In this document: positions 7,034 through 38,998 of the stretch, piece after piece
Layout of the letters: the number at the start of each line of letters is the position of its first letter
How positions within the stretch are numbered: the first letter of the stretch is position 1
Source: Micromonospora sp. NBC_01796
GTDB taxonomy: Bacteria; Actinomycetota; Actinomycetes; Mycobacteriales; Micromonosporaceae
Assembly (NCBI RefSeq): GCF_035917455.1
Contig: NZ_CP109078.1
Span: forward strand, 4,882,001 to 4,946,000
Length of the DNA: 64,000 nucleotides
Reading direction: 5' to 3'
Made by a program: the position numbers and the translations under genes
Notes under the pieces: generated by a model
Told to the model about the DNA's origin: nothing
Seen by the model: the letters and a program-made list of their open reading frames with translations, nothing else
Databases searched by the model: none

Positions 7034-7109
7034 CAACGTGTTGGGCCGGAGGCACCACCACGTCGAGTCTAGGTAGTGAGCCCCTCGGGGGTTCGGATGG
7101 AGATGGATC

Positions 7110-7991: not shown

Positions 7992-8005
7992 CCGTCCGGG
8001 GTGGC

Positions 8006-8041
8006 GGCGGCGCGGGGACAACGTTGGCCCCGCGCCGCCGG
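8006..8041. terminator. convergent-gene terminator hairpin
   Basis: A 13-bp perfect GC stem (outer C-G pair plus GGCGGCGCGGGG / CCCCGCGCCGCC) with a 10-nt loop between two convergent genes. It can serve both strands. Confidence 0.7.
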
Positions 8042-8049
8042 GTCCCGCC

Positions 8050-11000
8050 TCAGCTCTGAGGCTCGATCCAGATGTTGCGGTAACGGACGTTGGCGCCAGC
8101 GTCGCCGTGGTCCTGGAGCTTGATCGGGCCGATCGCCGGGCTCTCGGCGGCACCGCCACCCGTCGACCCGTCGATCTCGACGTTGTTGTGCACCACGACG
8201 CCGTTCCAGACCACGGTCACCCGGGCGTTCTCGGTCTTGGTGGTCCCGTTCCACCGGGCCGCCCGGAACGTGATCTCGTACGTCTGCCAGGTCTCCGGCG
8301 CCGTCGCCCGGTTACTGTCCGGGGCCCGCTTCTGGTAGAAACCGCCGCACTCGTTGTCGGCCGGCGTGGTGTCGCCGAACGAGTCCAGGACCTGCAACTC
8401 GTACCGGTCCTGGAGGTAGATGCCGCTGTTGCCGCGCGCCTGGCCGGTCACCTCCGGCGGCAGGTTCGGGATCCAGAACTCGGCGTGCAGCTTGAAGTCA
8501 CCGAAGCTCTGCTTCGTCCGCAGATCCCCACCGAGCACCTCGGCCGAACCGTTCGACACCGGCCAGGTCGGCGCGGCCCCGTTGGTGTGCTCCCAGTTCG
8601 CCGACAGGTTCGTGCCGTCGAACAGGTTGATCCGGGTCGGCGGCGCTGCCGTCCCGTACGCCTCGAACTCGTAGATCCGGGCCGCGTTGTCGGTGGTGCT
8701 GGTCGGCGCGGTGATGTTCAGCCGGATGTAGCGGGCCTGGACCGCGGTGATGTTGTGGGTGGTGGTCGACGCGGTGTTGCCGGTGACCGTGGCCGCCGTC
8801 GACCAGGTGGTGCCGTTGGTGCTGGTCGCGATCGTGAAGTCACGGGTGTTCCAGGCGGTGTTCTCCCCGCCCGCACCCGCGTGCGCGACCACGAACCGGC
8901 TCACCGACTGGGCCTGGCCCAGGTCGACCTGGAGCCACTTCGAGGTGCCGAGGGAACACCACTTGTCCAGGCCGCCGCCGGTGACGCTGCCGTTGACCGC
9001 CTTTGCCGGGGCCTCGTTGGCGTTGCACGAGGAGTCGGCGGTCGCAGGCTTGCCCAGGGCCAGGTTCGTGGTCGGCGGCGGAGCCGAAGTGCCGTACGCC
9101 TCGAACTCGTAGATCCGCGCGGCGTTGCCGCCGGCCTGCTCACCGGCGGTGATGTTCACCCGGACGTACCTTGCCTGGACCGGGGTGATGGTGTGGGTGG
9201 TGGTCGAGGCGGTGTTGCCGGTCACCGTGGCGGCCGTGGTCCAGGTGGTGCCGTTGGTGCTGGTCGCGAGGGTGAAGTCGCGGGTGTTCCAGGACGCCTG
9301 CTCCCCACCGGCCCCGGCGTGCTGGAGCACCAGGCGGCTCACCGTCTGGGCCTGGCCCAGGTCGACCTGGAGCCACTTCGAGGTGCCGGTCGAGCACCAC
9401 TTGTCCAGGGTGCCGCCGGTGACGCTGCCGTTGACGGCCTTCGCCGGGCCCTCGTCGGCCTTGCAGGAGGAGTCGGCGGTGGCGATCTTGCCCAGTGCCA
9501 GGTTCGGCTGGGCGGCGGTGCCGGGGATGTTGTTCAGGGTGTACCAGGCCTCGGTGCTCCACAGCGACTGGCCGGTGTTCGAGGTGAACGGGCGGGGTGA
9601 ACGGACGTACACCACCCGGTCGGGCTGGAGGCCGTTGATCACCAGGTTGACCTTCTTCCCGTCGGCCGACAGGGTCGCCGAGGAGACGGTCAGGGTCTGC
9701 AGGTTCAGCTTCGGGCCGCCGTACGCGGCGGTCGGCTGGTAACGCCACTGCTGCACCTTGTACGAGGTGGCCAGCGCCGCCGCGGTCGCCGCCGACAGGG
9801 GCTGGGTGTACTCCATCTCGAAACCGGTCGGCGTCGCCCGCATCGCCAGGATGTCGAACGTGTTCGCCCCGTTCGGGGTCAGCTTCTGCAGGCCGTAGCT
9901 GAGCTTGCCCTCCTGGCCCCAGTTCCCGCCCGCACCCAGGCCACCGGCGTAGATCGCGCCGTCCGGCCCCTGGGTCAGCTCGGTCACCCCGGCCTCCAGG
10001 CCCTGGGTCAACCGGAACAGGGCGCCCTGGTACTCGCCGTTGACCTTCTCCAGGTACGCCCGCTGGATCCCGCCGTACGTCACGTCGCTGATCAGCATCT
10101 GACCGGCGAAGGTGCCGGTGTTCAGGTAGACCGGGGTGCTCGGTGAGTTCGCGATCTCGTTCTGCGGCATCCACAGCACCGGCTGGGTCACCGGGCGGGA
10201 GTCGAACGGGCCCGCCGGGTTCATGTAGTGGTTGAAGAACCGGTCCTGCTTGACGTGCAGCAGCTTCGACGACGGCAGCCAACCGCCCTGGTTGTCGGTG
10301 ACGAAGATGCCTCCCTCCGGACCCCACCCGATCCCGTGCGGCGTACGCAGACCGCCCGCGACGTAACTGACCGCGCCGGTGGTCCGGTTCACCTTGATGG
10401 TGGTGCCCCGGTTGGGGGCCGGCTGCGGGTCGGTGGTGTTCCCGCCCAGGTTGATCGAGACGGAGAGGTTGAGGTAGAAGAACCCGTCCTGGTAGAGCAG
10501 GCCGAACCCGAACTCGTGGAAGTTGCCGCCGAACGGCCAGGTCGCGACCGTACGGTAGTTGTCGGTCACCCCGTCGCCGTTGGTGTCGTTGAGTTCGGTC
10601 AGCCGGTGTTTCTCCGACACGTAGATCTTGCCGTCCACGATCTTGATCCCCTGCGGTTCCCGGAGCCCGCTCGCCACCCGCTGCGTGGTCACCTGGCCGG
10701 GGCCGGTGTTGCCGGTGGTGTTGCCCAGGACCCAGACCTCGCCGAGCAGGTTGTCGGTGCCGCCCCAGGTGGTGATCGCGAGCCGGCCGTCGGGGAAGAA
10801 GTCCATCCCGGTGACCTGCGGCTGGAAGCCGGTCGGGCGCAGGTTCGTCAGGTTGTAGCTCGGGTGGACCGAGGTCAGCGGCAGCCCGTCACCGGGGGTG
10901 TCGGTGCTCGCCTCGCACTGCTTCTGACCGGGGGCGGTCACCCGTACGACACCGGAGTCGGTGCTGAGCACCGAGTTGGGCACCAGGACGTACGACGAGG

Positions 11001-11556
11001 CGCCCGGCGGCTGCCAGTGCAGGGTGATCTGCTGGTCCGCGCCGCGCTCGAAGTGGTCGATGCGCAGCGAGTGGTAGCCCGCGGTCAGGCTGATCGAGCC
11101 GTCGACCGGCGGGTTCGCGCCGTGCAGGCCGTCGTGGTCGATGACCACGGTGCTGTCGATGGTCAGCCGGGACCCGTCGTCACTGAACAGCCGGAAGTTG
11201 TACGTACCCGCCTGGGGGACGTTGATGTTGCCGATCACCTGGGTGACGAAGTTGTCGGCGATCCCGCCGAAGTCCGCGGTGGTGGTCCAGTTGATCGTCG
11301 GCATCAGCTTGTCGATGTTCGGGGTCTGCCCCGGCTTCAGTACGCAGATCTCCTCCAGCGGCACCTGCACGTCGAAGACCCGCAGGGTGACGCCGGGCTC
11401 CTGCGGCGGAGGGGCCAGCGCCGACAGTGGGCCTGTGGCGTGGACCGGCGCCGCGGCGCGGATCGGGCCCGCCGAGGCGGGCGAGGGCAGGGTGGCGGGT
11501 ATTACCAGGGCGAGGGAGGCAACTGCGAGGGCATGGCGAAGCCATCGTCTGTCCAT
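8050..11556 (-). CDS. secreted multidomain carbohydrate-active protein: PA14, beta-propeller, two CBM32, DUF1080
   Basis: 1168 aa with a Sec signal peptide (MDRRWLRHALAVASLALVI...ASA). Then: a PA14-like domain (about 45-200, GTYNFRLFSDDGSRLTID), a glucose/sorbosone-dehydrogenase-like six-bladed propeller (about 230-670), two F5/8-type C modules (about 683-825 and 830-970; NLALGK.ATADSSC), and a DUF1080/3-keto-disaccharide hydrolase-like domain (about 972-1168, INLFDGTNL...GNSGIYLQDRYELQVLDS). The start at 11556 has AGGAG; 30 more upstream codons do not. It is probably an extracellular glycan-binding enzyme; the substrate is not evident. The two CBM copies are near-identical in DNA. Confidence 0.85.
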   Translation of the reverse strand: MDRRWLRHALAVASLALVIPATLPSPASAGPIRAAAPVHATGPLSALAPPPQEPGVTLRVFDVQVPLEEICVLKPGQTPNIDKLMPTINWTTTADFGGIADNFVTQVIGNINVPQAGTYNFRLFSDDGSRLTIDSTVVIDHDGLHGANPPVDGSISLTAGYHSLRIDHFERGADQQITLHWQPPGASSYVLVPNSVLSTDSGVVRVTAPGQKQCEASTDTPGDGLPLTSVHPSYNLTNLRPTGFQPQVTGMDFFPDGRLAITTWGGTDNLLGEVWVLGNTTGNTGPGQVTTQRVASGLREPQGIKIVDGKIYVSEKHRLTELNDTNGDGVTDNYRTVATWPFGGNFHEFGFGLLYQDGFFYLNLSVSINLGGNTTDPQPAPNRGTTIKVNRTTGAVSYVAGGLRTPHGIGWGPEGGIFVTDNQGGWLPSSKLLHVKQDRFFNHYMNPAGPFDSRPVTQPVLWMPQNEIANSPSTPVYLNTGTFAGQMLISDVTYGGIQRAYLEKVNGEYQGALFRLTQGLEAGVTELTQGPDGAIYAGGLGAGGNWGQEGKLSYGLQKLTPNGANTFDILAMRATPTGFEMEYTQPLSAATAAALATSYKVQQWRYQPTAAYGGPKLNLQTLTVSSATLSADGKKVNLVINGLQPDRVVYVRSPRPFTSNTGQSLWSTEAWYTLNNIPGTAAQPNLALGKIATADSSCKADEGPAKAVNGSVTGGTLDKWCSTGTSKWLQVDLGQAQTVSRLVLQHAGAGGEQASWNTRDFTLATSTNGTTWTTAATVTGNTASTTTHTITPVQARYVRVNITAGEQAGGNAARIYEFEAYGTSAPPPTTNLALGKPATADSSCNANEAPAKAVNGSVTGGGLDKWCSLGTSKWLQVDLGQAQSVSRFVVAHAGAGGENTAWNTRDFTIATSTNGTTWSTAATVTGNTASTTTHNITAVQARYIRLNITAPTSTTDNAARIYEFEAYGTAAPPTRINLFDGTNLSANWEHTNGAAPTWPVSNGSAEVLGGDLRTKQSFGDFKLHAEFWIPNLPPEVTGQARGNSGIYLQDRYELQVLDSFGDTTPADNECGGFYQKRAPDSNRATAPETWQTYEITFRAARWNGTTKTENARVTVVWNGVVVHNNVEIDGSTGGGAAESPAIGPIKLQDHGDAGANVRYRNIWIEPQS
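8660..9520 (-). repeat. tandem duplication of a CBM32 module, unit 438 bp (146 codons)
   Basis: Two adjacent stretches within the secreted-protein gene can be laid over each other at an offset of 438 bp with nearly 90% visible identity (for example, the segments starting at 8747 and 9185). The reading frame is kept. This is a recent in-frame duplication of one F5/8-type C module. Confidence 0.8.
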
Positions 11557-11851
11557 GGTGTCTCCTGGGCGCGGTGGGACGGGACGGTCCACATGCGACG
11601 CGCCGTCGACAACTGGCCCGGAGACACCGACTCGGAGGCCAGCCACGCCGACGATGTAACTTCGCCGATACGTCGCGCTGAGGTTGGCGTCACACTAATC
11701 GACAAACGTCGAATTTTCTATGCCTTTCGCGGCGACCGCCACAACTTCCGATCGACGGATACAAAAGTCCCGGCGGATGGCGGCCGTACCCGCCGGCCGG
11801 GGCGCGGTGGTGTTCAATGTAGACGCGCGCGAACCGTGGGAGGTATCACCG
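11557..11851. other. divergent promoter region between the secreted protein and the EACC1 gene
   Basis: 295 bp with no supported gene. It holds the ribosome site of the secreted-protein gene, a small palindrome TCGAC-AAAC-GTCGA at 11699-11712 followed by an AT-rich stretch, and the ribosome site GGGAGG of the EACC1 gene. The palindrome could be an operator for the conflict locus. Confidence 0.4.
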
Positions 11852-26504: not shown

Positions 26505-26644
26505 CCGGCCGAGGCTAGCCGGGCGGCCCGTCCGGCGGGGGGCGGAACCGACCGGCGGGGCGTGCTGGACGGTCACGGCGGAGAGGCCGGTTACACCGGA
26601 CCGTCCGTCCGTCGGGGTGGGTCCGCCGGATGACTAGCCTGGGA

Positions 26645-26697
26645 TGTTAGGAAGGGACCCTTCCTGCTTCGAGAACGACGAGAAGGGCCCTTCCTTG
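26645..26697. repeat. AGGAAGGG double-hairpin repeat element
   Basis: Two small palindromes, AGGAAGGG-A-CCCTTCCT and AGAAGGGCCCTTCCTT, separated by about 20 nt. The pattern GTTAGGAAGGG...CCCTTCCT recurs, as I recall, as a dispersed intergenic repeat in Micromonospora and Salinispora. It lies just before the helicase start and overlaps an apparent in-frame ATG. Confidence 0.6.
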
Positions 26698-26700
26698 CGG

Positions 26701-29700
26701 GTGATCCACGGGCTTTGGCTGCGCGGTGGGCGGCTGGCGCTCTGGGGCGAGGACTCGACCCTGGTCGCGCCGGTGGTCCGGCGATCGGGTCGGGCACCGA
26801 GGGAGCGGGCGCATCCGTACGCCGCCGGTCACGCCGTCCTGGCCGAGGTGCTCGACGAGGTCGCCGCGAAGGCCGCGACCAGCACCGCGCTGCTCACCCT
26901 GCCGACCCGCGCCGGCCTCCCGGTCGACTCACCGGAACTGATCCGGGCCGACCAGGCCGAGCCGGGTCGGGCGACCCTCACCCTGGCCGGGTGGCGGGTC
27001 CCGACCCTGGAGTACGACGCCGACCACGCCCTGCCGGTGCTCCTGGCCCTCGCCGACGATCCGACCGTGGTCCGGGGCGGCACCCTGCGGCTGATCGAGG
27101 AACTGGCCGGTTTCGCCGCCGACCTGGTCGGGCGGGGGCGGACCCTGCCCGGCGTACGCACCGGCACCGACGGCACCGGCCCGGCCACCGCCGTCTGGCG
27201 TCCGCTGCTCACCGGTGCCGACGCGGCCCGGGTACGGGCACTGGCCATGGCGCTGCCCCCGGCGGCACGGGCGGCCGAACCGGACCTCTCCGTCGCCGTA
27301 CTCGTCGCCGACGCCCTGGACACGCTCACCGACGCCGCCGCCCGTACGGCCCTGGAGGGCGTACGCCTGATCGACTCGCGGGCCACCGGGGTGTCGGTGG
27401 GCGTACGGGCCTGGTTGCGGGCGCTCACCGGGCGGCAGCGCCGGTTCGACATCGCACCGGACGCGCTCGGCACCCTGGTCACGGAACTCGACACCTGGCA
27501 GCGTGACGCCGCCGGCAGCCAGGTACGGGCCTGCTTCCGGCTGGTCGAGCCACCGGCACCGGACCCGGAGGAGATCGGGGCCGAGGCGGTGGACGGCGTC
27601 GGGATCGAGGTTGACACCGACGGCGGCTGGCGGGTCGAGTTCGCGCTCCAGTCGGCCGACGAACCGAGCCTGGTCGTCGGGGCCGACCGGATCTGGCAGT
27701 CCCGGGGCGGGCTGCGGGCGCTGGCCCGGCACCTCGACGCGCCACAGGAGACGCTCCTGGCGGAGCTGGGCCGGGCCAGCCGGCTCTGGCCGGAGCTGAC
27801 CGACGCGCTGCGTACGGCCGCACCGGACGGGTTGGCGCTGGACACCGAGGGGGCGCACCGGTTCCTGCGGGACGGGGCGCCGGTCCTGCACGCCGCCGGG
27901 TTCGGGGTGCTGCTCCCGTCGTGGTGGTCCCGGCCCAGCGCCCGGCTCGGGGCCAGGTTGCAGGCGAAGAGCCGGACCGCGCCGGGCACCGTCGCCGCGC
28001 GCAGCTCGCTCGGCCTGGACGCGCTGGTCGACTACAAGTGGGAGCTGGCCCTCGGCGACCAGCCGCTGTCCGGCCGGGAACTGCGCGACCTGGCCAAGCT
28101 CAAGACCCCGCTGGTACGCCTGCGCGGGCAGTGGGTCGAGTTGGACGCCCGCCGGCTGGCGGCAGGGCTGCGGCTGCTCCGGGACAGCGGCGAGCTGACC
28201 GTCGCCGACCTGCTGCGCCTGGGGTTGGAGAGCGCGGACGAGCCGGACGCGTTGCCGGTGCTGACCGTCGGCGCCGACGGGGCGCTCGGTGACCTGCTCG
28301 CCGGGCAGGCCGAGCGGCACCTGACCCCGCGCGACGAGCCGGAGGGGTTCCGGGGGACGCTGCGGCCGTACCAGAAGCGGGGTCTGGCCTGGTTGGCGTT
28401 CCTCCAGTCGCTCGGCCTGGGTGGGGTGCTCGCCGACGACATGGGGCTGGGCAAGACCGTGCAGTTGCTGGCGCTGCTCGCCGGTGACGGGCCGACCGAC
28501 GGGCCGACGCTGCTGGTCTGCCCGATGTCGCTGGTCGGCAACTGGCAGCGGGAGGCGGCGAAGTTCGCGCCGGAGCTGCGCGTACACGTGCACCACGGTG
28601 CCGAGCGGGCGCGCGGGGAGACGTTCACCGCGGCCGTGCGGGACGCGGACCTGGTCCTGACCACCTACTCGGTCGCGGCGCGGGACGCGGCGGCGTTGGC
28701 CGAGGTCGACTGGCACCGGCTGGTGGTGGACGAGGCGCAGGCGATCAAGAACGCGGCGACCCGGCAGGCCGCCGCGGTCCGGGCACTGCCCGCCCGGCAC
28801 CGGATCGCGGTCACCGGTACGCCGGTGGAGAACCGGCTCGCCGACCTGTGGTCGATCATGGAGTTCGCCAATCCCGGCCTGCTCGGCACCGCCTCGGCGT
28901 TCCGCAAGCGGTACGCGGTCCCGATCGAGCGGCACGGTGACGACGCCGCCGCCGAGCGGTTGCGCCGGTTCACCGGCCCGTTCGTGTTACGCCGCACCAA
29001 GACCGACAAGTCGATCATCTCCGATCTGCCGGAGAAGCTGGAGATGGAGGTGCTCTGCAACCTCACCGCCGAACAGGGCTCGCTCTACCAGGCGGTGGTC
29101 GACGACATGATGGCCAGGATCGAGTCCAGTACGGGGATCGAGCGCCGGGGCCTGGTGCTGGCCACGATGACCAAGCTCAAGCAGGTCTGCAACCACCCGG
29201 CGCAACTGCTGCGCGACGGCTCCGCGCTGACCGGCCGGTCGGGCAAGCTGGCCCGGCTGGAGGAGATCGTGGACGAGGTCCTGGCGGCGGGGGAGAAGGC
29301 CCTGCTGTTCACCCAGTACGCCGAGTTCGGCAACATGCTCCGGGCGCAGCTCTCGGCCCGGCTCGGCCGGGAGGTCCTCTACCTGCACGGCGGCGTCGCC
29401 AAGGCCGAGCGGGACACCCTGGTGACCCGGTTCCAGTCCGACGACGGCCCGCCGCTGTTCGTCCTCTCGATCAAGGCCGGTGGGACCGGGCTGACCCTGA
29501 CCGCCGCCAACCACGTGGTGCACGTCGACCGGTGGTGGAACCCGGCGGTCGAGGACCAGGCCACCGACCGGGCGTTCCGGATCGGGCAGCGCCGGGCGGT
29601 CCAGGTACGCAAGTTCGTCTGCGCCGGCACGGTCGAGGAGAAGATCGCCGCGATGATCAACGAGAAGCGCGGTCTGGCCGCGAAGATCGTCGGCACCGGC

Positions 29701-29778
29701 GAGCAGTGGGTGACCGAACTGTCCACAACGGAACTACGCGGCCTGTTCGCCCTGGAAGCCGGGGCGGTGGCCGAGTGA
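26701..29778 (+). CDS. SNF2-family DEAD/DEAH-box helicase
   Basis: 1025 aa. The N-terminal 550 residues are the SNF2-associated region seen in actinobacterial homologues. RecA-like domain 1 has DDMGLGKT (Lys585) and DEAQ at 677-680; domain 2 has the SNF2 C-terminal block GGTGLTLTAANHVVHVDRWWNPAVEDQATDRAFRIGQ. It should translocate on duplex DNA with ATP. The GTG at 26701 matches the family N-terminus (VIHGLWLRGGRLALW); an upstream ATG at 26644 lies inside a repeat element. The next gene starts within its stop codon, and the two are usually partners. Confidence 0.9.
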   Translation: MIHGLWLRGGRLALWGEDSTLVAPVVRRSGRAPRERAHPYAAGHAVLAEVLDEVAAKAATSTALLTLPTRAGLPVDSPELIRADQAEPGRATLTLAGWRVPTLEYDADHALPVLLALADDPTVVRGGTLRLIEELAGFAADLVGRGRTLPGVRTGTDGTGPATAVWRPLLTGADAARVRALAMALPPAARAAEPDLSVAVLVADALDTLTDAAARTALEGVRLIDSRATGVSVGVRAWLRALTGRQRRFDIAPDALGTLVTELDTWQRDAAGSQVRACFRLVEPPAPDPEEIGAEAVDGVGIEVDTDGGWRVEFALQSADEPSLVVGADRIWQSRGGLRALARHLDAPQETLLAELGRASRLWPELTDALRTAAPDGLALDTEGAHRFLRDGAPVLHAAGFGVLLPSWWSRPSARLGARLQAKSRTAPGTVAARSSLGLDALVDYKWELALGDQPLSGRELRDLAKLKTPLVRLRGQWVELDARRLAAGLRLLRDSGELTVADLLRLGLESADEPDALPVLTVGADGALGDLLAGQAERHLTPRDEPEGFRGTLRPYQKRGLAWLAFLQSLGLGGVLADDMGLGKTVQLLALLAGDGPTDGPTLLVCPMSLVGNWQREAAKFAPELRVHVHHGAERARGETFTAAVRDADLVLTTYSVAARDAAALAEVDWHRLVVDEAQAIKNAATRQAAAVRALPARHRIAVTGTPVENRLADLWSIMEFANPGLLGTASAFRKRYAVPIERHGDDAAAERLRRFTGPFVLRRTKTDKSIISDLPEKLEMEVLCNLTAEQGSLYQAVVDDMMARIESSTGIERRGLVLATMTKLKQVCNHPAQLLRDGSALTGRSGKLARLEEIVDEVLAAGEKALLFTQYAEFGNMLRAQLSARLGREVLYLHGGVAKAERDTLVTRFQSDDGPPLFVLSIKAGGTGLTLTAANHVVHVDRWWNPAVEDQATDRAFRIGQRRAVQVRKFVCAGTVEEKIAAMINEKRGLAAKIVGTGEQWVTELSTTELRGLFALEAGAVAE

Positions 29779-30707
29779 CCGAGCAGAGCACCGGATCCGG
29801 ACGGTTCGCCGACTACGGGCGCCCCCGCAAGGTCGACGGCGGACTGCGGGCGCGTACGGCCCGTGGCTCGATCGGGGCGTCCTGGTGGTCCCGCCGGTTC
29901 GTCGACGTACTGGAGTCGTTCGCGCTCGGCACCAGGCTCACCCGTGGCCGGGCGTACGCCCGCGCGGGGCAGGTGCTGTCGCTGGAGGTCGCGCCGGGAC
30001 TGGTGACGGCGGTGGTGCAGGGCTCACGGCCGAAGCCGTACCAGGTGACGGTGCGACTGCACCCGTACCCGGAACCGGTCTGGACCGGGATCGAGACGGT
30101 CCTCGCCGGTCAGGCGCTGTTCAGCGCCCAACTACTGGCCGGGGACCTGCCGCCGGAACTGGAACGGGTGTTCGCCGAGGCGGACGCGCCGCTGTTCCCG
30201 AGCGTGATCGACGACCTGACGATGCGCTGCAACTGCCCGGACTTCGCGGTGCCGTGCAAGCACCTCGCCGCCTCGTTCTACCTGCTCGCCGAGGCGTTCG
30301 ACGCGGACCCGTTCCAGTTGCTGCACTGGCGCGGCCGTACCCGTGCCGAACTGCTCGACCGGCTGCGCGAACTCCGCACCGGCCACCCGTCCGTCGAGCC
30401 GGTCGGCCCGTCCGACGAGTACGCCGACCCGGTGCCGGCCGAGCCACTGCCGGGACTGGAACGTCCGGCGGTGCCGGTCGCCGGTGCCGGACTGGCCCTG
30501 GCCGACCTGCCCGACCTCGCACCGGCCACGGCGGTCGACCGCTACTGGCAACCACCGGTGCCGCTGCCGGATCCGGTGCCGATCCTGGCCACCGAACCCG
30601 ACCTGCTGCTGCGCCAACTCGGCGCTCCCGGTGCCCCGATCGGCGGCCCCGGACTGGTCGAGCGTCTGCGGCGGGCGTACGACCGGTTCGGCCAACCCGC
30701 ACCGTGA
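29775..30707 (+). CDS. SWIM zinc-finger protein, partner of the SNF2 helicase
   Basis: 310 aa. GTG start overlaps the helicase stop (GTGA). The N-terminal WWSRRFVDVLESFALGTRLTRGRAYARAGQV and the SWIM motif CNCPDFAVPCKHLA (C-x-C-xn-C-x-H) near 155-170 identify it. The C-terminal 100 residues are Pro-rich. SWIM proteins next to SNF2 helicases are a conserved bacterial pair thought to act together on DNA; the exact process is unknown. Confidence 0.9.
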   Translation: MTEQSTGSGRFADYGRPRKVDGGLRARTARGSIGASWWSRRFVDVLESFALGTRLTRGRAYARAGQVLSLEVAPGLVTAVVQGSRPKPYQVTVRLHPYPEPVWTGIETVLAGQALFSAQLLAGDLPPELERVFAEADAPLFPSVIDDLTMRCNCPDFAVPCKHLAASFYLLAEAFDADPFQLLHWRGRTRAELLDRLRELRTGHPSVEPVGPSDEYADPVPAEPLPGLERPAVPVAGAGLALADLPDLAPATAVDRYWQPPVPLPDPVPILATEPDLLLRQLGAPGAPIGGPGLVERLRRAYDRFGQPAP

Positions 30708-30716
30708 CGACCCGCG

Positions 30717-30739
30717 CGTGCCGACGGTGAACCGGCACG
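30717..30739. terminator. short GC hairpin between convergent genes
   Basis: CGTGCCG and CGGCACG pair over a 9-nt loop, midway between the SWIM gene stop and the stop of the DUF3040 gene. Stem is only 7 bp, so this is weak. Confidence 0.35.
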
Positions 30740-30752
30740 GGTGACGCCGGGG

Positions 30753-31010
30753 TCAATGGTGCAACCGGCGGACCCGCCAGGCCAGCACGCTGGCGGCGGC
30801 GAGCACGACCGGCGCTATCACGGCCGCCAACCAACCGCCGATGACAACCACGGCCGGTACGGCGCTCCAGAGCACGACGGTCAACAGGAGCAGAAGTCTG
30901 CCCCGGCGGTGCTGGGCACGATCGCTGAGCCGGGCGACGAAGTCCGGGTCGCTGATTCTCAGCTGGCGGGTGATCTCGTCGAACCGACGCTGATCCTCTT
31001 TGCTGAGCAT
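30753..31010 (-). CDS. DUF3040 family membrane protein
   Basis: 85 aa. The N-terminal MLSKEDQRRFDEITRQLRISDPDFVARL is the DUF3040 signature, followed by two transmembrane helices (LLLLLTVVLWSAVPAVVVIGG; AAVIAPVVLAAASVLAWRV). Small inner-membrane proteins of this type are common in actinomycetes; function unknown. The family start was chosen over an ATG 27 nt upstream. Confidence 0.75.
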   Translation of the reverse strand: MLSKEDQRRFDEITRQLRISDPDFVARLSDRAQHRRGRLLLLLTVVLWSAVPAVVVIGGWLAAVIAPVVLAAASVLAWRVRRLHH

Positions 31011-31447
31011 GGCGGCAGCCTTCCCCTCACGCGTCAACTGTCCGGGGCGGGGATACCCGATCCGTAGCCGCTCTCACTCCCGCTCCCGATCGCCTGCGTT
31101 CCAGCGCTCGGATTGCCGCAGGTTTTACTTATTCCCACCTTAAGTTTGCCTTTACCGCCGAATCCCGGTCCGTGCTACGAGCAGGTTACGGATCCCTTCG
31201 TAACCACCGGCCCGGCGACATCGGTGCTGCTGGCGACCGTTGCCGTGCGCCCCGGTCGAAACCGCGCGCCGGTGATTCCCCTTCAGGGTTGCTTAAGTCG
31301 CTGCTGGAGGGCGGTTTCGGCGACCTTGAAGCGGATCGGCGGCTTGGTTACTTTGCCGTAGCAACCCCCCTCAGTAACCGCCGCCGGATCACCGCCCCTG
31401 CCGTTTACGCGGCTGAATCCGGCGCGCCTCAGCAGACGGATTGGTAC
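31011..31447. other. non-coding gap upstream of the DUF1800 operon
   Basis: No supported gene. It contains AT-richer stretches at 31120-31155 (likely divergent promoters), a perfect palindrome GGTTACG-N8-CGTAACC at 31184-31205, and several GTTAC/GTAAC elements near 31345-31378 that could be further sites for the same protein. The 5' leader of the operon could be up to 300 nt. Confidence 0.4.
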
Positions 31448-33631
31448 ATGGCTGACCAGAATGTGCCACCACGCCGATCGCGTGACGACAGCCCTTGGGA
31501 CGGTCGACCCCAGCCCGGCGCCGACGGATACCGGGCCGCGCCCGGCCAGTCCGCGTACGGCCGCCCGGCCCCCGGATCCGACGCGTACCCGGACGCGCGC
31601 TACCCGCAGTCGGCGGGTCACCAGCAGTACCCCGGCTACCCCCAGCCGGGCCACCCGCAGCGTGGCCCGCAGCACCCCGACCAGTACGTGGACCAGTGGA
31701 CCCAGGAGCACCGCGCCGGTGGCACCGGGCACCGGGGCCCGCAGTGGGTCGGTCCGGAGGGCTTGGAGCCGCAGGGCCGCGACCCGTACGCCGGGCCGTC
31801 GCAGCTTCCCGAACTGGACGACGACGGTGAGCCGGGCAAGCGCAACGTCGGGCGTCGCCGGGCCCTGGTCGCGCTGACCGGTGCCGCCGCGGTGGTGGCC
31901 GGTGCCGGTGCGATCGCGATGGCCTCGCGCGGCACCGAACTGGGCGACAAGATCCTCGGCAACACCCCGTTCGGTGGCGGCAACGGCAACGCGACCGCCG
32001 CCGCGATCACCGACGGGACCGCCGACCGCCCCAGCGGACAGCAGCCGAGCACGGTGCGTACCTACACCGAGCAGAACGAGAGCTACATGGGCTCCCGGGC
32101 CGGGGCCGAGCTGAAGAAGAACGCGCCGGCCAGTGGTCGTACCCTCGCCGGCCCGGCCTCCGCAGCGGCCGAGACCGAGGTCACGGTCAAGACGGTGCTC
32201 GCCAAGGACCCGATCCGGCACCTCGCCACCCGGGCCACCTTCGGCGCCACCCCCAAGGTCCTCGCCGAGATCAAGACCATGGGGATCGACGAGTGGCTGC
32301 GCTGGCAGCTCGATCCGGACAAGATCGCGCCGACCAAGGGTGAGCTGAAGCTCTCCGAGCTGCCCACCCTGAACCTGTCGATCAAGCAGCTCCGGGAACG
32401 CCGCGACACGGTCAAGGACGTCGACAACTCCGACAACGAGTTCGTCTGGGCGTCGGTCGCCCGCCAGATCTGGTCCGACCGGCAGCTCTTCGAGGTCATG
32501 GTCGACTTCTGGAACGACTTCCTGCACGTCGCCGCGTTCTTCGACGGCGGTGACATCACCCGCTCGACGTTCGACCGGGACGTGATCCGCAAGCACGCCC
32601 TGGGAAACTACGCGGACATGCTGGTCGCCGCGAACACCCACCCGGCGCTGATCGTCTACCTGAACCAGAACGAGTCGCACAAGGACGCGATCAACGAGAA
32701 CCTGGCCCGGGAGAACCTGGAGCTGTACTCGGTCGGCGTCGACGGCGGCTACACCGAGATGGACGTACGGCAGGCCGCGATGCTCCAGACCGGCCTCGGC
32801 GTGGACAAGGACGAGTACGTCTACCGCGCCAACCGGCACTACGTCGGCAAGGTCAGCATCCTCGGCTTCAACAGCGACAACAGCTCCGCCGAGGGCGGCG
32901 AGTCGGTGATCAAGGCGTACCTGAAGCACCTCGCCCTGCACCCCTCGACCGCGAACTACATCGCGCAGAGCCTGGCCACCCGGTTCGTCTCGGACACCCC
33001 GCCGAAGTCCCTGGTCGAGCGCCTGGCCAAGACGTACACGGCCAACAAGGGTGCGATCAGGCCGACCCTGATGACCCTGTTCAGCTCCACCGAGTTCTGG
33101 GGCTCCGTCGGCCAGAAGGTACGCCGCCCGATGGAGTACCTGGTCGCCACGTACCGGGTGCTCGGCATGCAGCCGGACCCGTCGCCGGACTACCAGAAGC
33201 GGGCCGACCTCAGGCGGACCCCGTTCGCGGACGGGCTGAACCAGCTCAGGAACAAGATGGAGGAGCTGGGCCAGTTCCCCGCCGGCCTCTCCACCCCGAA
33301 CGGCTACCCGGACGTCTACGTCGCCTGGACCTCCGCCGGGACCATGGTCAACGGCTGGAACGAAGCCCACGACGTGATCAACGGCAACCGGAAGGTCTTC
33401 TCCTACACCAAGCCGGACAAACTGGTGGCGGCCCCGCCGGCCACCGCGGGCGCCTACCTCGACGCCCTGTCGCTGCGGTTGGTGCACCAGAAGCTGACGG
33501 ACAAGGAAAAGTCCCTGATTCTCGGCATCGCCGGGGTGACCGCCGACGCGAAGGTCGACGCCACGTTCAACGGCGCGATCACCGCCATCGCGCGGGCGCT
33601 TCTCGCCTCCCCCCAGCACCACCTCCGGTGA
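31448..33631 (+). CDS. DUF1800 family exported protein
   Basis: 727 aa. The first 120 residues are Pro/Gln/Tyr/Gly-rich and disordered (repeats of QYPGYPQPGHPQ type). GRRRALVALTGAAAVVAGAGAIAMA is a single membrane anchor or Tat-like signal. The DUF1800 domain (about 240-725: IRHLATRATFGATPKVLAEIK, MVDFWNDFLHV, RENLELYSVGVDGGYTE) follows. DUF1800 and DUF1501 proteins are almost always adjacent and thought to act together at the cell surface, biochemical role unknown. The start lacks a strong ribosome site; ATG 31448 is the first Met before the low-complexity region. Confidence 0.85.
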   Translation: MADQNVPPRRSRDDSPWDGRPQPGADGYRAAPGQSAYGRPAPGSDAYPDARYPQSAGHQQYPGYPQPGHPQRGPQHPDQYVDQWTQEHRAGGTGHRGPQWVGPEGLEPQGRDPYAGPSQLPELDDDGEPGKRNVGRRRALVALTGAAAVVAGAGAIAMASRGTELGDKILGNTPFGGGNGNATAAAITDGTADRPSGQQPSTVRTYTEQNESYMGSRAGAELKKNAPASGRTLAGPASAAAETEVTVKTVLAKDPIRHLATRATFGATPKVLAEIKTMGIDEWLRWQLDPDKIAPTKGELKLSELPTLNLSIKQLRERRDTVKDVDNSDNEFVWASVARQIWSDRQLFEVMVDFWNDFLHVAAFFDGGDITRSTFDRDVIRKHALGNYADMLVAANTHPALIVYLNQNESHKDAINENLARENLELYSVGVDGGYTEMDVRQAAMLQTGLGVDKDEYVYRANRHYVGKVSILGFNSDNSSAEGGESVIKAYLKHLALHPSTANYIAQSLATRFVSDTPPKSLVERLAKTYTANKGAIRPTLMTLFSSTEFWGSVGQKVRRPMEYLVATYRVLGMQPDPSPDYQKRADLRRTPFADGLNQLRNKMEELGQFPAGLSTPNGYPDVYVAWTSAGTMVNGWNEAHDVINGNRKVFSYTKPDKLVAAPPATAGAYLDALSLRLVHQKLTDKEKSLILGIAGVTADAKVDATFNGAITAIARALLASPQHHLR

Positions 33632-33638
33632 GCTAACA

Positions 33639-35018
33639 GTGGAGAAGACTGTGCACTCGTACCCCCTGCACCCCGACTGCCCCGACCTGCGGCGTCTCGC
33701 CCCGAACCGGACCGAGGCCGTGCTGCGCGCCGAGCACGCCGCGGTGACGGCCGAGAACGCCGCCGTACGCGAGCAGTTCCTCAACCTGTCCGAAGTGGAG
33801 GAGGCCCAGCAGGACGGGCGCGGCGTCACCCGCCGTACGTTCGTCGCCGGTGCCGCCGCCACGGTGACCGCCCTGGCCACCACCCAGTTCGTCTCGACCC
33901 AGGCATCGTTCGCCGCCACCCCCGGCGGCACCCTGATCCACGTCTTCCTCTACGGCGGGCTGGACGGGCTGAGCCTGGTCGCGCCGGACAACGACCCGGT
34001 CCTCAGCAAGGCCCGCCCCGACCTGCTGCTCGGCACCGACTCGCTCGCCCTGGACCGCGGGTTCAAGCTGACCAGCGCGTTCGCCCCGTTGCAGAAGTTC
34101 CTGGACGCCGGGCAGCTCGGCTTCGTACCGGCCGCCTCCGACCCTCGGGTGTCGCGCAGCCACTTCCAGGCCGCGGACGCCTGCAACCTCGGTGGCCTGC
34201 CGAACGAGACCGGTGGCCGGGGCTGGCTGGACAGCCTGGTCGACGCCCTCGGGCCGGGCACCGCGTTCCGCAGCGTCGGTGTCGGCAGCACCCTGCCGCG
34301 CTCGCTGGTCGGCAACAACAGCGCCCTGTCGCTGAACAACGTCGGCTCGCTCGGCTTCAACGGCGACGGCCGGTTCAAGGACGCCACCGCCAGGGCCATC
34401 CAGGGCCTCTTCACCGGGATCAACCACCCGGTGGAGGAGTCGGTGATCGCCGGGCTGGGCGCGCTGAAGACCGCGCAGCAGTTGGCCGCCAAGCCGTACG
34501 CCCCGGCCGAGGGGGCCGAGTACACCGGCATCGGTAACTCGTTCCGTACCCTGGCCCAGCTCATCAAGGGCGGCGCCAACGTACGGGTGGCGACCATCGG
34601 CATGGGCGGCTACGACACCCACGAGAACCAGGGCACGGCGGCCGGCGGTCAGCTCCACAACCGGCTGGGCGAGCTGGCCAAGGGCATGGCGGCGTTCTTC
34701 ACCGACCTCGGCCCGTTGGCCGCCGACGTGACCATCATGGTCAGCAGCGAGTTCGGTCGCCGGGTCGCCTCGAACAGCGGCGGCACCGACCACGGCCACG
34801 GTGGCGTGGTCACCATCCTGTCCGGCAAGAAGCTGGCCGGTTCCCTGCTCGGCAACTGGAACGGGCTGGACAAGCTCGACAGCGGTGACGTGCCCGAGTA
34901 CAACAACATGTTCAACGTGTACGGGTCGGTGGCCCAGGGCCGCTTCGGCCTGACCGACGCCGAGGTGAAGAAGATGTTCCCCCGTCAGACCTTCACCCCG
35001 GTCAAGCTGTACGCGTGA
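33639..35018 (+). CDS. DUF1501 family protein, Tat-exported
   Basis: 459 aa. Residues 63-95 are a twin-arginine signal (TRRTFVAGAAATVTALATT). The DUF1501 domain follows: FLYGGLDGLSLVAP near 105-118, SRSHFQAADA, IGMGGYDTHENQ, SSEFGRRV and DHGHGG (sulfatase-like metal site residues). It begins 7 nt after the DUF1800 stop with GTG. It belongs to the alkaline-phosphatase-like superfamily by recollection; the substrate is unknown. Confidence 0.9.
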   Translation: MEKTVHSYPLHPDCPDLRRLAPNRTEAVLRAEHAAVTAENAAVREQFLNLSEVEEAQQDGRGVTRRTFVAGAAATVTALATTQFVSTQASFAATPGGTLIHVFLYGGLDGLSLVAPDNDPVLSKARPDLLLGTDSLALDRGFKLTSAFAPLQKFLDAGQLGFVPAASDPRVSRSHFQAADACNLGGLPNETGGRGWLDSLVDALGPGTAFRSVGVGSTLPRSLVGNNSALSLNNVGSLGFNGDGRFKDATARAIQGLFTGINHPVEESVIAGLGALKTAQQLAAKPYAPAEGAEYTGIGNSFRTLAQLIKGGANVRVATIGMGGYDTHENQGTAAGGQLHNRLGELAKGMAAFFTDLGPLAADVTIMVSSEFGRRVASNSGGTDHGHGGVVTILSGKKLAGSLLGNWNGLDKLDSGDVPEYNNMFNVYGSVAQGRFGLTDAEVKKMFPRQTFTPVKLYA

Positions 35019-36550
35019 CAAACCGGTCGACCTCCACTGGCCACCGTTCCGGGGACTACTCCCGGGACGGTGGCCAGCAGCCGTACGTCTACGCCGACGA
35101 CGCCCGTTGGACCGACGAGACCCGCTACCCCGAACAGCCCCGCCGTACCGAACAGCCCCGGTCGGGCGGGCAGCAGACCCGGCCGGCGCGGTCGGATCCG
35201 CCTGCGGGCGTACCGAACGAGGTGCCGGAGCAGCGGGGGCCGGTGGGCCGGTGGGTGGTCGTCCTCCTGCTCTGGGTGGGGCTGCTGGCCGCGGTGGTGC
35301 CGTGGTGGCTGGACACCGAGCCCGGTGCGGTGAACAGCGAGCACGCCGCCCTCACCGCCGCCGGCCGGATCAGCGGCCTGATCGCCGGTTACCTGCTCCT
35401 GGTCCAGGTGCTGCTGATGAGCCGGCTGCGGTCGCTGGAGCGGTGGATCGGCGCCGAGCAGCTCAGCCGGTGGCACCGCGACATCGGCGGCACCGTGTTC
35501 GTCGCGGTGCTGGCACACGTTGGCCTCATCCTCGCCGGCTACGCCGGCCTGGAACGCAAGACGCTGCTAGCCGAGGCGACCACCCTCCTGCGCGACTACG
35601 AGGACATGCTCGCCGCGTTCGGCGCCGCCGCCATCATCGTCCTGCTCGGGTTCACCGGGATCCGGTTCGTCCGCAACGCACTGCCGTACGAGTTCTGGTA
35701 CTACCTGCACCTGAGCAGTTACGCCGTACTGCTGCTCGGTTTCGGCCACCAGTTCACGTACGGCCAGCAGTTGTTCCGGCCCGGACCGGTGCGGACCGGT
35801 TGGATCGCCGTGTACGTCCTGGTGATCGCGGCCGTCGTCTGGGGTCGGGTGTTCACCCCGCTGTGGCTGAACCTGCGGTACCGGCTGCGCGTCGCCGACG
35901 TGGTGGCGGAGAGCCGGGACACCATCTCGATCTACCTGACCGGTCGGAACCTGGACCGGTTGCAGGTGCTCGCCGGGCAGTTCTTCCGGTGGCGGTTCCT
36001 CTCCGCCGGGCGCTGGTGGCAGTCGCACCCGTTCTCGCTCTCCGCCGCCCGCAACGGCCGCTGGCTGCGGCTGACCGTGAAGGTGGTCGGCGGGCACACG
36101 GCCGAGCTGCGCCGGCTGCGTCCCGGCACCCGGGTCTGGGCCTCCGGCCCGTCCGGTACGTTCACCGCCGCGCACCGGGTCGCCGAGCGGTCGCTGCTGA
36201 TCGCCGGGGGGAGCGGGATCTCCCCGATCCGGGCCCTGCTGGAGGAGTTGCCGCCCGGTGCCGCCCTGATCTACCGGGCCAGCACCCCGGACGACCTGCT
36301 GCTCCGGCGGGAGCTGGACTGGCTGGCCGAGGCCCGGGAGACCGAGATGTGGTACGTCCTCGGTTCCCGCAACGACCCCGGTCCGCAGCAGATCTTCACC
36401 GCCCGTGGCCTGCGCCGGCTGGTGCCCGACCTGACCGAGCGGGACGTCTACCTCTGCGGGCCGGCGGGTCTGGTCCGCGAGTCGGTCCGGGCGCTGCGTC
36501 GTGCAGGGGTGCCGCGCCGGCAGATCCACCTGGCCACGTTCGAACTCTGA
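35015..36550 (+). CDS. ferric-reductase-like transmembrane flavoprotein (FRE/NOX type)
   Basis: 511 aa; GTG overlaps the DUF1501 stop. The first 80 residues are hydrophilic. About six membrane helices span 80-285, with His residues on successive helices (WHRDIGGTVFVAVLAHVGLI; YYLHLSSYAVLLLGFGHQFTYG) suited to bind haem. The C-terminal FAD/NAD module has HPFSLSAARNG (FAD), LLIAGGSGISPIRALLEEL and DVYLCGPAGLVRESVRALR (NAD(P)H). It would pass electrons from cytosolic NAD(P)H across the membrane, here plausibly to the FMN-bind protein encoded next. Confidence 0.9.
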   Translation: MTNRSTSTGHRSGDYSRDGGQQPYVYADDARWTDETRYPEQPRRTEQPRSGGQQTRPARSDPPAGVPNEVPEQRGPVGRWVVVLLLWVGLLAAVVPWWLDTEPGAVNSEHAALTAAGRISGLIAGYLLLVQVLLMSRLRSLERWIGAEQLSRWHRDIGGTVFVAVLAHVGLILAGYAGLERKTLLAEATTLLRDYEDMLAAFGAAAIIVLLGFTGIRFVRNALPYEFWYYLHLSSYAVLLLGFGHQFTYGQQLFRPGPVRTGWIAVYVLVIAAVVWGRVFTPLWLNLRYRLRVADVVAESRDTISIYLTGRNLDRLQVLAGQFFRWRFLSAGRWWQSHPFSLSAARNGRWLRLTVKVVGGHTAELRRLRPGTRVWASGPSGTFTAAHRVAERSLLIAGGSGISPIRALLEELPPGAALIYRASTPDDLLLRRELDWLAEARETEMWYVLGSRNDPGPQQIFTARGLRRLVPDLTERDVYLCGPAGLVRESVRALRRAGVPRRQIHLATFEL

Positions 36551-36564
36551 CGGAGGTTGCACCG

Positions 36565-37188
36565 TTGCGTCGCGCCATTCTCGGCATCACCGGTCTTGCC
36601 GCGAGCACCACCCTGCTGGTGGTGCTCAAGGGCGGGCCGGCGACGACCGCGACCGCCCAGGACGTACCGGTCGGGACGGCGGGTGCGTCGACCGACCCGA
36701 GCGCCGGTGCCCCGCCGGAGCCGACCCCGGACCCGGCCGATGGCGGTGCGCAACCGACCGTGTCCGGTAAGCCGGGTGCGCCGAGCGGATCACCCGGAAA
36801 GTCACCGTCGAAGACCCCGACCGGCAAGCCCACGTCGAAGGCGCCGACCGGTGGGGGAGCGCCCACCACCACCAAGGCACCCCCGCCGCCGGCCAGCGGC
36901 CCCCGCAAGATCGACGGTTCGGTGACACCCGCGGCCGACTTCGGCCTGGTCCAGGTGCAGATCACCGTCTCCGGTGACCGGGTCACCAACGTCATCGCGC
37001 TGGAACTGCCGGGCGAGACGGCCACCTCGGAGGGGAACAGCGACCGGGTGGACCGGGCCTACAGCGGGACCGGCGGGCAGGCGGTCACGGCGGCGAACCA
37101 GGGCCGGCTGCCGGACACCGTCAGCGGGGCGACCGCGACCAGTTCGGCGTACCGGCGGTCGTTGCAGGCCGCCCTGGACAAGATGTGA
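36565..37188 (+). CDS. FMN-binding domain lipoprotein-like/exported protein, ApbE substrate
   Basis: 207 aa with a TTG start 8 nt after a GGAGG. An N-terminal hydrophobic segment (AILGITGLAASTTLLVVLK) is followed by a 90-residue Pro/Ser/Thr/Lys-rich linker that would span the wall, then the FMN_bind domain. The flavinylation motif SGATAT lies at 187-192 with Thr192 as the expected acceptor for covalent FMN. ApbE is the next gene, as usual. Function: extracytoplasmic one-electron carrier, inferred from family and context. Confidence 0.85.
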   Translation: MRRAILGITGLAASTTLLVVLKGGPATTATAQDVPVGTAGASTDPSAGAPPEPTPDPADGGAQPTVSGKPGAPSGSPGKSPSKTPTGKPTSKAPTGGGAPTTTKAPPPPASGPRKIDGSVTPAADFGLVQVQITVSGDRVTNVIALELPGETATSEGNSDRVDRAYSGTGGQAVTAANQGRLPDTVSGATATSSAYRRSLQAALDKM

Positions 37189-37195
37189 GGTCGGC

Positions 37196-37966
37196 GTGAC
37201 CAGCGTACGGACCAGGCCGGGGCTGCGCCGGGTCGAGTTCGTCATGGGTACGGCGATCAGCCTCGACCTCGCCGACGACCTGCCCCCGGAGCGCCTCGAC
37301 CAGCTCGCCGAGCAGGTTTTCGGCTGGATGCGCGAGGTCGACCAGCGGTTCAGCACGTTCAAGGCCGACAGCGAGGTGAGCCGGTTCGACCGGGGCGAGG
37401 TGGTGCTCTCCGACGCGTCGGCGGACCTGCGGGCCACCCTGGAACGCTGCGCCGACCTGTGGGGCGACACCGACGGTTTCTTCGACGCGTACGCCACCGG
37501 CCGGTTCGACCCGTCCGGGTACGTCAAGGGCTGGTCGGCCCAGGTCGCCTCGGACCGGCTGGTGGCCGCCGGGGCGCCGAACCACTGCGTCAACGCCGGT
37601 GGTGACGTCCGGGTACGCGGCCTGTCCAGTTCCGGCGAGCCGTGGCGGGTCGGGGTGCAGGACCCGTGGGACCCGAGCCGGGTCGCGCTGGTGGTGCACG
37701 GGACCGACCTGGCGGTCGCCACCTCCGGCGTCTACGAGCGGGGGCACCACGTGATCGACCCGCGCCGGGGCACCCCGGCCCGGGGCCTGCGTTCGGTGAC
37801 GGTGGTCGGCACCGACCTCGGCACCGCCGACGCGTACGCGACCGCGGCGCTGGCGATGGGGCAGGCCGGAGTGAGCTGGCTCGGCCGGTTGTCCGGGTAC
37901 GAGTGGGCCGTGGTCACCGACGACCGGCGTACGCCCCGGTCCGACCGCCTGCCGATCACGGACTGA
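37196..37966 (+). CDS. apbE: ApbE family FAD:protein FMN transferase
   Basis: 256 aa, GTG start 7 nt after the FMN-bind stop with GAGG upstream. Family blocks: VEFVMGTAISLDL, DQRFSTFKADSEVSRF, FDPSGYVKGWSAQ (Lys in the FAD-binding loop), VNAGGDVRVRG, LAVATSGVYERGHHVIDPRRGTPA (metal-binding and active site). It transfers FMN from FAD to Thr/Ser of FMN_bind proteins. Length is shorter than Gram-negative ApbE because no lipoprotein signal is present; actinobacterial versions without signal are common, so where it acts (cytosol or outside) is open. Confidence 0.9.
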   Translation: MTSVRTRPGLRRVEFVMGTAISLDLADDLPPERLDQLAEQVFGWMREVDQRFSTFKADSEVSRFDRGEVVLSDASADLRATLERCADLWGDTDGFFDAYATGRFDPSGYVKGWSAQVASDRLVAAGAPNHCVNAGGDVRVRGLSSSGEPWRVGVQDPWDPSRVALVVHGTDLAVATSGVYERGHHVIDPRRGTPARGLRSVTVVGTDLGTADAYATAALAMGQAGVSWLGRLSGYEWAVVTDDRRTPRSDRLPITD

Positions 37967-38311
37967 CGTACCGTGGTGGGCCGGGTCAGCGCACGGGGCG
38001 GTGGGTCCCGGCTGGTCGGGAGCCGGTCGGCCGAGGACCGCCGGGGCGGGATCCCTTCGGTCGGGTCCCCGCCCACCGGCACGGCGGTGAGCCGGTGGCC
38101 GGCTCCGCCCCGTCCATACCGCCGGAGGCCGGCGGTGTCTCGTCAGTTCGCATGTCATCCCCCGTGTGCGCGCCGGCTCGGTTTGCCTCTTGCGGTCCCG
38201 ACCTCGGCTGTGCTACCTGCGTTAACGACCGTTACCTCGGCGGGTCGCTGCATGCCGCGCGCCGACTCGCCCGGACCGGCGTGGGAGCCGGGCGCCACGC
38301 GGTGCGGTGGT
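37967..38311. other. intergenic region between the flavin operon and the prim-pol-like gene
   Basis: 345 bp between convergent genes. No frame has start and codon support. It contains a hairpin CCACCGGC-N10-GCCGGTGG at 38073-38098, likely the terminator of the flavin operon. Confidence 0.45.
38073..38098. terminator. hairpin after apbE
   Basis: Perfect 8-bp GC stem with a 10-nt loop, 107 nt past the apbE stop and between convergent genes. Confidence 0.4.
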
Positions 38312-38998
38312 TCAGTAGCCGCGCCGGGGAGCGGGCAGCCGTCCGGGCAGCAGGGCGACCGGGATCGCCGGGGTGTGCGCCTGCAACGCGTCGACCAGGA
38401 GTTCCTGCACGGCGTACGAGTCGGGAAGCTGCCAGCGGACCTCCTCCGGCGGCACCACCCAGCGCACGGTTCCCTCGGGCAGCCGGGTCGGCGGGGCGGG
38501 GATCCAGGAGCCGGGACCGTGCCGGACCACGTACAGGCACTGGTCGAGTTCCGGTCGGAGCGGGTCACCGGGGCGGACCAGGAACATCCAACGCCCGCCC
38601 GGGGTGAGTGCGACCGGGCCGCGTACCTGGTCGTGGCCGGGGATGGTCACGCCGGGGTGGGGCCGGGAGGCGTCGAGTACGTGCTGGCCGAGGTACGCCG
38701 GCACCTCCAGGACGTCGAAGGTGTAGCCGGTGGCGAGCAGTACGGCGTGCGGCCGTACCCGCCACCAGGCGCCGACCCGGGCCGGGTCGGAACTGGCGGC
38801 TCCCTCCCACTCCTCCAGGGCGGGGTGGCAGCCGGTGGTGGGGCAGCCGGCCCGGCCGCAGACGAAGCGCTGCCGGTTGAGGAAGGCGCCGGGGGTCACC
38901 TCCCAGCCGTGCATGGCGTACCGGACGGCGACCCGCCTCAGGCGTACCCGTTCCAGGGTGGTCAGGCGGGTGATGGGCGGTCGGGTGGTCCCCCACAT
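38312..38998 (-). CDS. prim-pol-like (bifunctional DNA primase/polymerase N-terminal) protein
   Basis: 228 aa. It resembles the small actinobacterial proteins annotated as bifunctional DNA primase/polymerase: RYAMHGWEVTPGAFLN at the start of the fold, the Cys-rich CGRAGCPTTGCHPA insert, WWRVRPHAVLLATGYTFDVLEVP (where prim-pol enzymes have the metal-binding DxD, here FDV) and GRWMFLVRPGD. The DxD is not intact, so catalytic activity is doubtful. A GAGGAG precedes the ATG at 38998. It is divergent from the XRE regulator. Confidence 0.65.
   Translation of the reverse strand: MWGTTRPPITRLTTLERVRLRRVAVRYAMHGWEVTPGAFLNRQRFVCGRAGCPTTGCHPALEEWEGAASSDPARVGAWWRVRPHAVLLATGYTFDVLEVPAYLGQHVLDASRPHPGVTIPGHDQVRGPVALTPGGRWMFLVRPGDPLRPELDQCLYVVRHGPGSWIPAPPTRLPEGTVRWVVPPEEVRWQLPDSYAVQELLVDALQAHTPAIPVALLPGRLPAPRRGY

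Follow-up and report, generated by a model that had tools for sequence, protein, structure and literature searches.

The soil actinomycete Micromonospora sp. NBC_01796 carries a five-gene operon, at positions 31448–37966 of a 64,000-nucleotide stretch of contig NZ_CP109078.1 (positions 4,882,001–4,946,000; hereafter the window), in which genes for a DUF1800 and a DUF1501 protein (the pair) directly precede genes for a ferric-reductase-like membrane flavoprotein, an FMN_bind protein, and an ApbE flavin mononucleotide (FMN) transferase (the triad). The operon is real and conserved, and the linkage of its two halves was not found described in the literature searched. Because the layout recurs in relatives, we regard it as more than a chance observation. 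In the reading that we favor, with confidence about evenly balanced for and against, DUF1800 and DUF1501 are a hydrolase or transferase pair that is exported by twin-arginine translocation (Tat), acts on an envelope polymer, and is co-expressed with an electron-export module without being its electron sink. What the two halves have in common is probably a promoter and not a reaction. No text tying DUF1800 or DUF1501 to flavinylation was found in the literature searched, which included the main text of Meheust et al. (2021, PMC8238504); the supplementary tables of that paper may list the linkage.

Conservation and separability of the operon

The layout proposed in an earlier note on this DNA, five same-strand genes with overlaps or short gaps, was borne out: the genes form a single 6.5-kb directon on the forward strand (read from sequence), with successive gaps of 7, −4, 14, and 7 nt and the Pfam families as named. 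In a sample of 121 Micromonosporaceae genomes, 32 contained a window-type DUF1501 (approximately 60% identity or higher across the aligned region) and five further genomes held only more distant copies. The surroundings of all 32 (31 relatives plus the window) were read from maps made with an ad hoc gene caller, which also supplied the flanking genes. All five genes were present in order in 17, and the membrane-protein gene adjoined the pair in 20, with the linked genomes spanning seven genera. Three loci were linked but incomplete, two having no adjoining ApbE gene (L047 and L060) and one running into a contig end (L053). In L047 (genome G001), DUF1800 is spread over three frames and the membrane flavoprotein over two, and no ApbE was found, reflecting either assembly errors or operon decay. 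Two genera, g15 and g38, have flanking genes unlike those of the rest, yet keep the pair and flavin genes together (L067, and L060 without ApbE).

Named related loci belong to Micromonospora, Asanoa, Dactylosporangium, and Phytohabitans. In the best 80 of 222 GTDB loci, an uneven sample consisting mostly of Micromonospora, the membrane-protein gene lies directly behind the pair in 60; all five genes are visible in 54, and the other six are short contigs or contig ends. The halves overlap by 4 nt (GTGA) in 54 of these 60 loci and by 8 nt in four, the start being unplaceable in two. The two halves co-occur in related genomes and form one directon, and the outcome that the earlier note would have taken as refutation, independent promoters with no co-occurrence in related genomes, did not turn up.

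Each half is also kept without the other. The pair stands alone in 12 of the 32 family genomes, six of them g31 (Phytohabitans-type) and six g44. In g31 it lies between the same flanking genes with the triad absent (L065 and L066 show fewer flanks, the L065 contig beginning inside or just before the pair), and an FMN_bind match was found in none of the six genomes. The reverse arrangement occurs in genome G008 (g9), where locus L071 has the triad between the same flanks with the pair absent and no DUF1800 match was found anywhere in the genome. The G008 membrane protein nests within the linked group in the tree, beside a linked one (support 89/87, below the 95/80 mark), and this placement suggests that G008 lost the pair. 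All six g44 genomes have both halves apart: their pair loci (L054–L059) show no triad, FMN_bind lies elsewhere, and the two stand-alone triads that were read are L068 and L069.

Across the class, DUF1501 was detected at an E-value of 1e-35 or better in 71 of 394 genomes, and the best 40 of 82 places were taken as distant loci. DUF1800 was called beside DUF1501 in 39 of them, and the remaining contig (L108) ends in DUF1501. Neither an FMN_bind gene nor any recurring partner was found among the neighbors of these 40 pairs; L106 has a weak membrane-protein match approximately 4 kb away. A divergent ApbE at L113 was considered as a flavin link and rejected, as it sits with electron-transfer flavoprotein genes and not with FMN_bind. 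Matches to both halves occur in 15 genomes of the class that lie outside the family; many of these assemblies are fragmented, and adjacency was found in none.

Flavin module, exported pair, and polysaccharide loci

Judged by sequence, the triad corresponds to the flavinylation system described in print as “MsrQ-like”, and this half of the operon is already known. Section 10 of Meheust et al. (2021, PMC8238504) gives 1797 such clusters from 1468 genomes, broadly distributed in Actinobacteria, 1437 of them with PF00175. As in those clusters, the window encodes a PF01794 membrane protein with heme-type histidines and a C-terminal PF00175 domain, adjoined by apbE and by an FMN_bind gene with the [S/T]GA[S/T] motif; unlike them, it follows a DUF1800/DUF1501 pair to which its translation is probably coupled, and it has no VIT1 iron transporter nearby. 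Iron uptake via VIT1 was accordingly dropped as a candidate role, the only PF01988 match of the genome lying at 1.14 Mb and the window at 4.9 Mb. All 24 homologues compared have the four heme-type histidines (His154/168/232/245), [S/T]GAT is present in 22 of the 23 homologues of FMN_bind, and the membrane protein adjoins FMN_bind in 29 of 30 class FMN_bind loci among the matches listed. The suggestion that the ferric-reductase-like protein, the FMN_bind protein with its SGATAT sequence, and ApbE would form a transmembrane electron path therefore agrees with a known system. In L046, an otherwise normal five-gene locus, the FMN_bind protein has SQAT in place of SGAT.

The flavin acceptor had been placed at Thr192. 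SGATAT spans FMN_bind residues 187–192, and since the published flavinylation motif is [S/T]GA[S/T] (Meheust et al., PMC8238504), Thr190, the T of SGAT, is the more likely site. A hydrophobic N-terminus is present on FMN_bind and absent from ApbE (read from the sequence without a signal-peptide predictor). An RR N-terminus is general among FMN_bind proteins of the family, but some class sequences have MKR, so Tat export of FMN_bind is only a possibility. Actinobacterial MsrQ-like ApbE proteins often start at the domain with no signal peptide while their FMN_bind substrate has an MRR or MKR signal (window 36565–37966, L216–L245). Either flavin would be attached before a folded FMN_bind protein is exported by Tat, or ApbE would leave the cell by an unrecognized route.

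For the pair, AlphaFold2 produced a fair model of DUF1501 (predicted local distance difference test score, pLDDT, 77.3) and a good one of the DUF1800 core. The top Foldseek rows for DUF1501 were LtaS, alkaline phosphatases, sulfatases, and EptC, with six rows at E ≤ 0.001. Of the 998 chains preselected by Foldseek and compared by VIA-align, 487 reached Z ≥ 8; NPP3 aligned over 239 residues with Z 15.2 and a root-mean-square deviation of 3.6. DUF1501 is thus predicted to have the alpha/beta fold of the alkaline-phosphatase superfamily. Eighteen diverse sequences all have D109, S174, D326, H328, E371, D384, and H385, which we take to be compatible with a Ser nucleophile plus metal ligands, a tentative assignment that follows the usual roles of such residues in the superfamily. 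Non-significant rows of the DUF1501 profile in the PDB were nitrous-oxide reductase Tat signals (E 0.12 and 0.75) and BcsG (E 0.73–1.2); the BcsG match was considered as a pairing of two DH motifs and dropped, as the mapped alignment ends at SEFG.

The DUF1800 model is mostly helical, with no Foldseek row at E ≤ 0.001, and the comparison with PDB chains gave no relative that could be trusted; likeness to a phycobilisome linker was rejected at a best Z of only 3.4. No sequence relatives were found in the PDB for the single proteins or for the DUF1800 profile, and no well-conserved Cys column was found in the DUF1800 alignment. The statement that the pair has no known chemistry is still fair for DUF1800 and too strong for DUF1501. 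No residue column in DUF1800 and eight in DUF1501 separated linked from unlinked pairs, most of the eight falling within the N-tail and signal.

Both window proteins have their own Tat-like segment, that of DUF1800 sitting behind an N-tail of approximately 130 residues rich in Pro, Gln, and Tyr, and that of DUF1501 consisting of a twin-arginine motif before a hydrophobic stretch, with a TIGR01409 score just below the cut-off. An RR motif occurs in 37 of 39 DUF1800 sequences, and an RR-type motif in 37 of 38 DUF1501 sequences as well as 72 of 77 from other loci. Among paralogous and distant loci, a simple hydropathy test found an upstream hydrophobic segment in 43 of 77 DUF1800 domains. In 21 pairs the longest DUF1800 frame begins approximately at the domain, with no room for a usual signal, although about six of these could gain a short hydrophobic stretch through upstream non-ATG starts. 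All 21 of the DUF1501 proteins paired with them carry a Tat-like signal (in L104 the motif was read from the alignment, the automated pick being the wrong stretch). A signal-less DUF1800 beside a DUF1501 with a Tat signal therefore suggests that DUF1800 leaves the cell in complex with DUF1501, riding on its signal; for such pairs it is possible instead that DUF1800 stays in the cell. The 21 pairs (in L011, L104–L112, and L194–L214) may be a new family of Tat hitchhikers.

The 8.56-Mb genome contains four DUF1800/DUF1501 pairs and a single FMN_bind match, which lies in the window, so the other three pairs have no FMN_bind neighbor. In one of these, L012 (C1:7323000–7342000; 2051–11755), DUF1800 and DUF1501 close a tight operon behind Wzy_C, Polysacc_synt (below its cut-off), a polysaccharide pyruvyl transferase, and three glycosyltransferases. 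The L012 pair shares its two families and gene order with the window pair and differs in DUF1501 sequence, in a DUF1800 without an obvious signal, and in its glycosyltransferase partners. An L012-type DUF1501 relative was detected at E 1e-60 in 71 of 121 family genomes, and 20 of the best places were taken. At least two glycosyltransferase or Wzy genes were present in 20 of 21 L012-type loci (L012 included), the middle of the locus varying. The glycan profiles were built partly from six of these loci (L012, L200, L203, L205, L210, and L211), and 14 of the 15 others were positive; with the same profiles, only one of the 40 distant loci and none of the 31 window-type loci gave a match. In L012 and L195–L214, the pair keeps its place at one end of an otherwise variable exopolysaccharide locus of the Wzx/Wzy type, found in many Micromonosporaceae, and the gene at the opposite end (up1) has no Pfam match. 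L194 (4580–13230), from a Micromonosporaceae metagenome bin, has two same-strand DUF1800/DUF1501 pairs a few kb apart.

The exopolysaccharide link of the paralogues agrees with a link reported from proteobacteria, where DUF1800 and DUF1501 lie beside bacterial chitin synthases (PMC5122149). Those pairs resemble the window pair in the adjacency of the two families and the Tat-type signal on DUF1501; the window differs in having a flavin module and no glycan synthase nearby. The DUF1800/DUF1501 family overall points to extracellular polymers, the window-type pair being without such a neighbor.

Gene layout and surroundings

Feature coordinates are given in Table 1. All five proteins scored above curated Pfam cut-offs: DUF1800 with PF08811 (364.6 bits, cut-off 26.1), DUF1501 with PF07394 (73.3, cut-off 27), the membrane protein with PF01794 (56, cut-off 28), PF00175 (36.8, cut-off 22), and PF08022 (28.8), FMN_bind with PF04205 (28.1), and ApbE with PF02424 (149). 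The flanking genes, at 30753–31010 and 38312–38998, are on the opposite strand. No sigma-70-like promoter or terminator-like site was found in 30900–38350, which is weak evidence in a high-GC actinomycete, and no Rfam match at gathering score was found in 30700–38700 for an RNA element or riboswitch. Farther upstream, at 26644–30707, a gene of 1044 codons that is helicase-like by eye overlaps a second gene; many relatives keep these two genes (clusters c10 and c11) in synteny with the operon.

Table 1. Genes and sequence features of the operon, in window coordinates.
Feature	Position	Strand	Details
DUF1800 protein	31448..33631	+	ATG start, 727 aa; PF08811 at residues 258–724; AlphaFold2 core pLDDT 89.6
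Tat-like RRR plus hydrophobic segment of DUF1800	31841..31921	+	approximately residues 132–158; from hydropathy
DUF1501 protein	33639..35018	+	GTG start, 459 aa; 7-bp gap after DUF1800; predicted alkaline-phosphatase-superfamily fold
Tat signal of DUF1501, VTRRTFVAGAAATVTALATTQF region	33822..33908	+	TIGR01409 15.9 bits, cut-off 16.7; RR-type motif
Membrane flavoprotein, Ferric_reduct/FAD-/NAD-binding	35015..36550	+	GTG start, 511 aa; heme-type His 154, 168, 232, 245
4-nt overlap of DUF1501 stop and membrane-flavoprotein GTG start	35015..35018	+	coupling point of the two halves; kept in 54/60 loci
FMN_bind protein	36565..37188	+	TTG start, 207 aa; 14-bp gap; N-terminal MRR hydrophobic signal
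SGAT flavinylation motif of FMN_bind	37123..37134	+	residues 187–190
ApbE FMN transferase	37196..37966	+	GTG start, 256 aa; 7-bp gap; domain from the very start, no visible signal peptide

Explanations of the linkage and their meaning

In the favored reading, cytosolic NAD(P)H would reduce the flavin adenine dinucleotide of the membrane protein, electrons would cross the membrane over two hemes bound by the four histidines, and these would pass to covalent FMN that ApbE puts on the exported FMN_bind protein. DUF1800 and DUF1501 would be exported by Tat, probably as a complex. DUF1501 would most likely act on an extracellular polymer, cleaving or transferring a group of the phosphate or sulfate type, and DUF1800 would be the partner dedicated to it. 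The two modules would be co-transcribed and translationally coupled for joint work at the envelope, with electron flow from the first to the second not required. Several points weigh against this. DUF1501 shares its predicted fold with the alkaline-phosphatase superfamily (NPP, LtaS, EptC, and sulfatases) but differs in that its sequence profile found no significant alkaline-phosphatase relative in the PDB (best superfamily row BcsG, E 0.73) and in that its metal-ligand set deviates in part. The second-metal Asp-His that is usual for the superfamily is not obvious, the expected strand reading SEFGRR in its place, so that any activity is only putative. A glycan gene was found near none of the 31 pairs of the window type, so a polymer substrate is only carried over from paralogues, and the DUF1501 of the L012-type paralogue is only approximately 28% identical to that of the window. 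Finally, a functional tie tighter than shared expression could lie behind the long persistence of the overlap in several genera.

The earlier note suggested that the pair, sitting in the same transcript, may consume the electrons of the flavin path or process a substrate at its end. The single directon, the coupled overlap, and co-occurrence in seven genera speak for this, and the directon contains no other acceptor gene. Electron hand-over has become less likely because each half is kept alone and because the one chemical clue for the pair is hydrolysis or group transfer. All six g31 genomes have the pair with no FMN_bind, G008 has the triad with no DUF1800, the six g44 genomes have the halves unlinked, and none of the 40 distant pairs adjoins FMN_bind, while DUF1501 is predicted to have the fold of non-redox phosphatases, sulfatases, and phosphodiesterases and DUF1800 shows no well-conserved Cys column. 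We now consider this role improbable. More doubtful still is a variant in which the flavinylated carrier feeds NAD(P)H electrons to a DUF1800/DUF1501 complex remodeling an extracellular glycopolymer, with DUF1800 accepting electrons or gripping the polymer. The extracytoplasmic reductase beside the pair, and the alkaline-phosphatase-type fold on a folded protein exported by Tat, would also suit a triad that keeps a redox-sensitive metal site of DUF1501 active or shields the exported pair from oxidation. Pair orthologues exist in genomes without FMN_bind, however, and no residue set marks the linked pairs; this explanation is similarly remote.

A stronger competitor, tentative but ahead of any electron hand-over, is an accidental operon: standing two-gene and three-gene units would have come to adjoin in a single ancestral event and been inherited together since, which would say little about function. 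The occurrence of each unit alone, the confinement of the linkage to Micromonosporaceae (found in none of the 15 other class genomes with both genes), and trees that allow the linked triads a common ancestor all fit such an origin. It accounts less well for the survival of the linkage in g15 and g38 among other flanking genes and for a start/stop overlap kept in 58 of 60 loci, and we continue to place co-expression of two envelope modules above it.

What is new here is an arrangement of known parts, and its main value is a testable idea for DUF1800 and DUF1501, which are widespread paired families with little in print and, in the portions of the literature searched, no reported tested function. 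The comparison offers a first testable mechanism for them, namely a Tat-exported enzyme of predicted phosphatase fold with a partner, tied to polysaccharide loci. The flavinylation system, which in most actinobacteria has no known physiological acceptor, gains a conserved and separable partner, and Micromonospora together with Phytohabitans provides a natural knock-out series.

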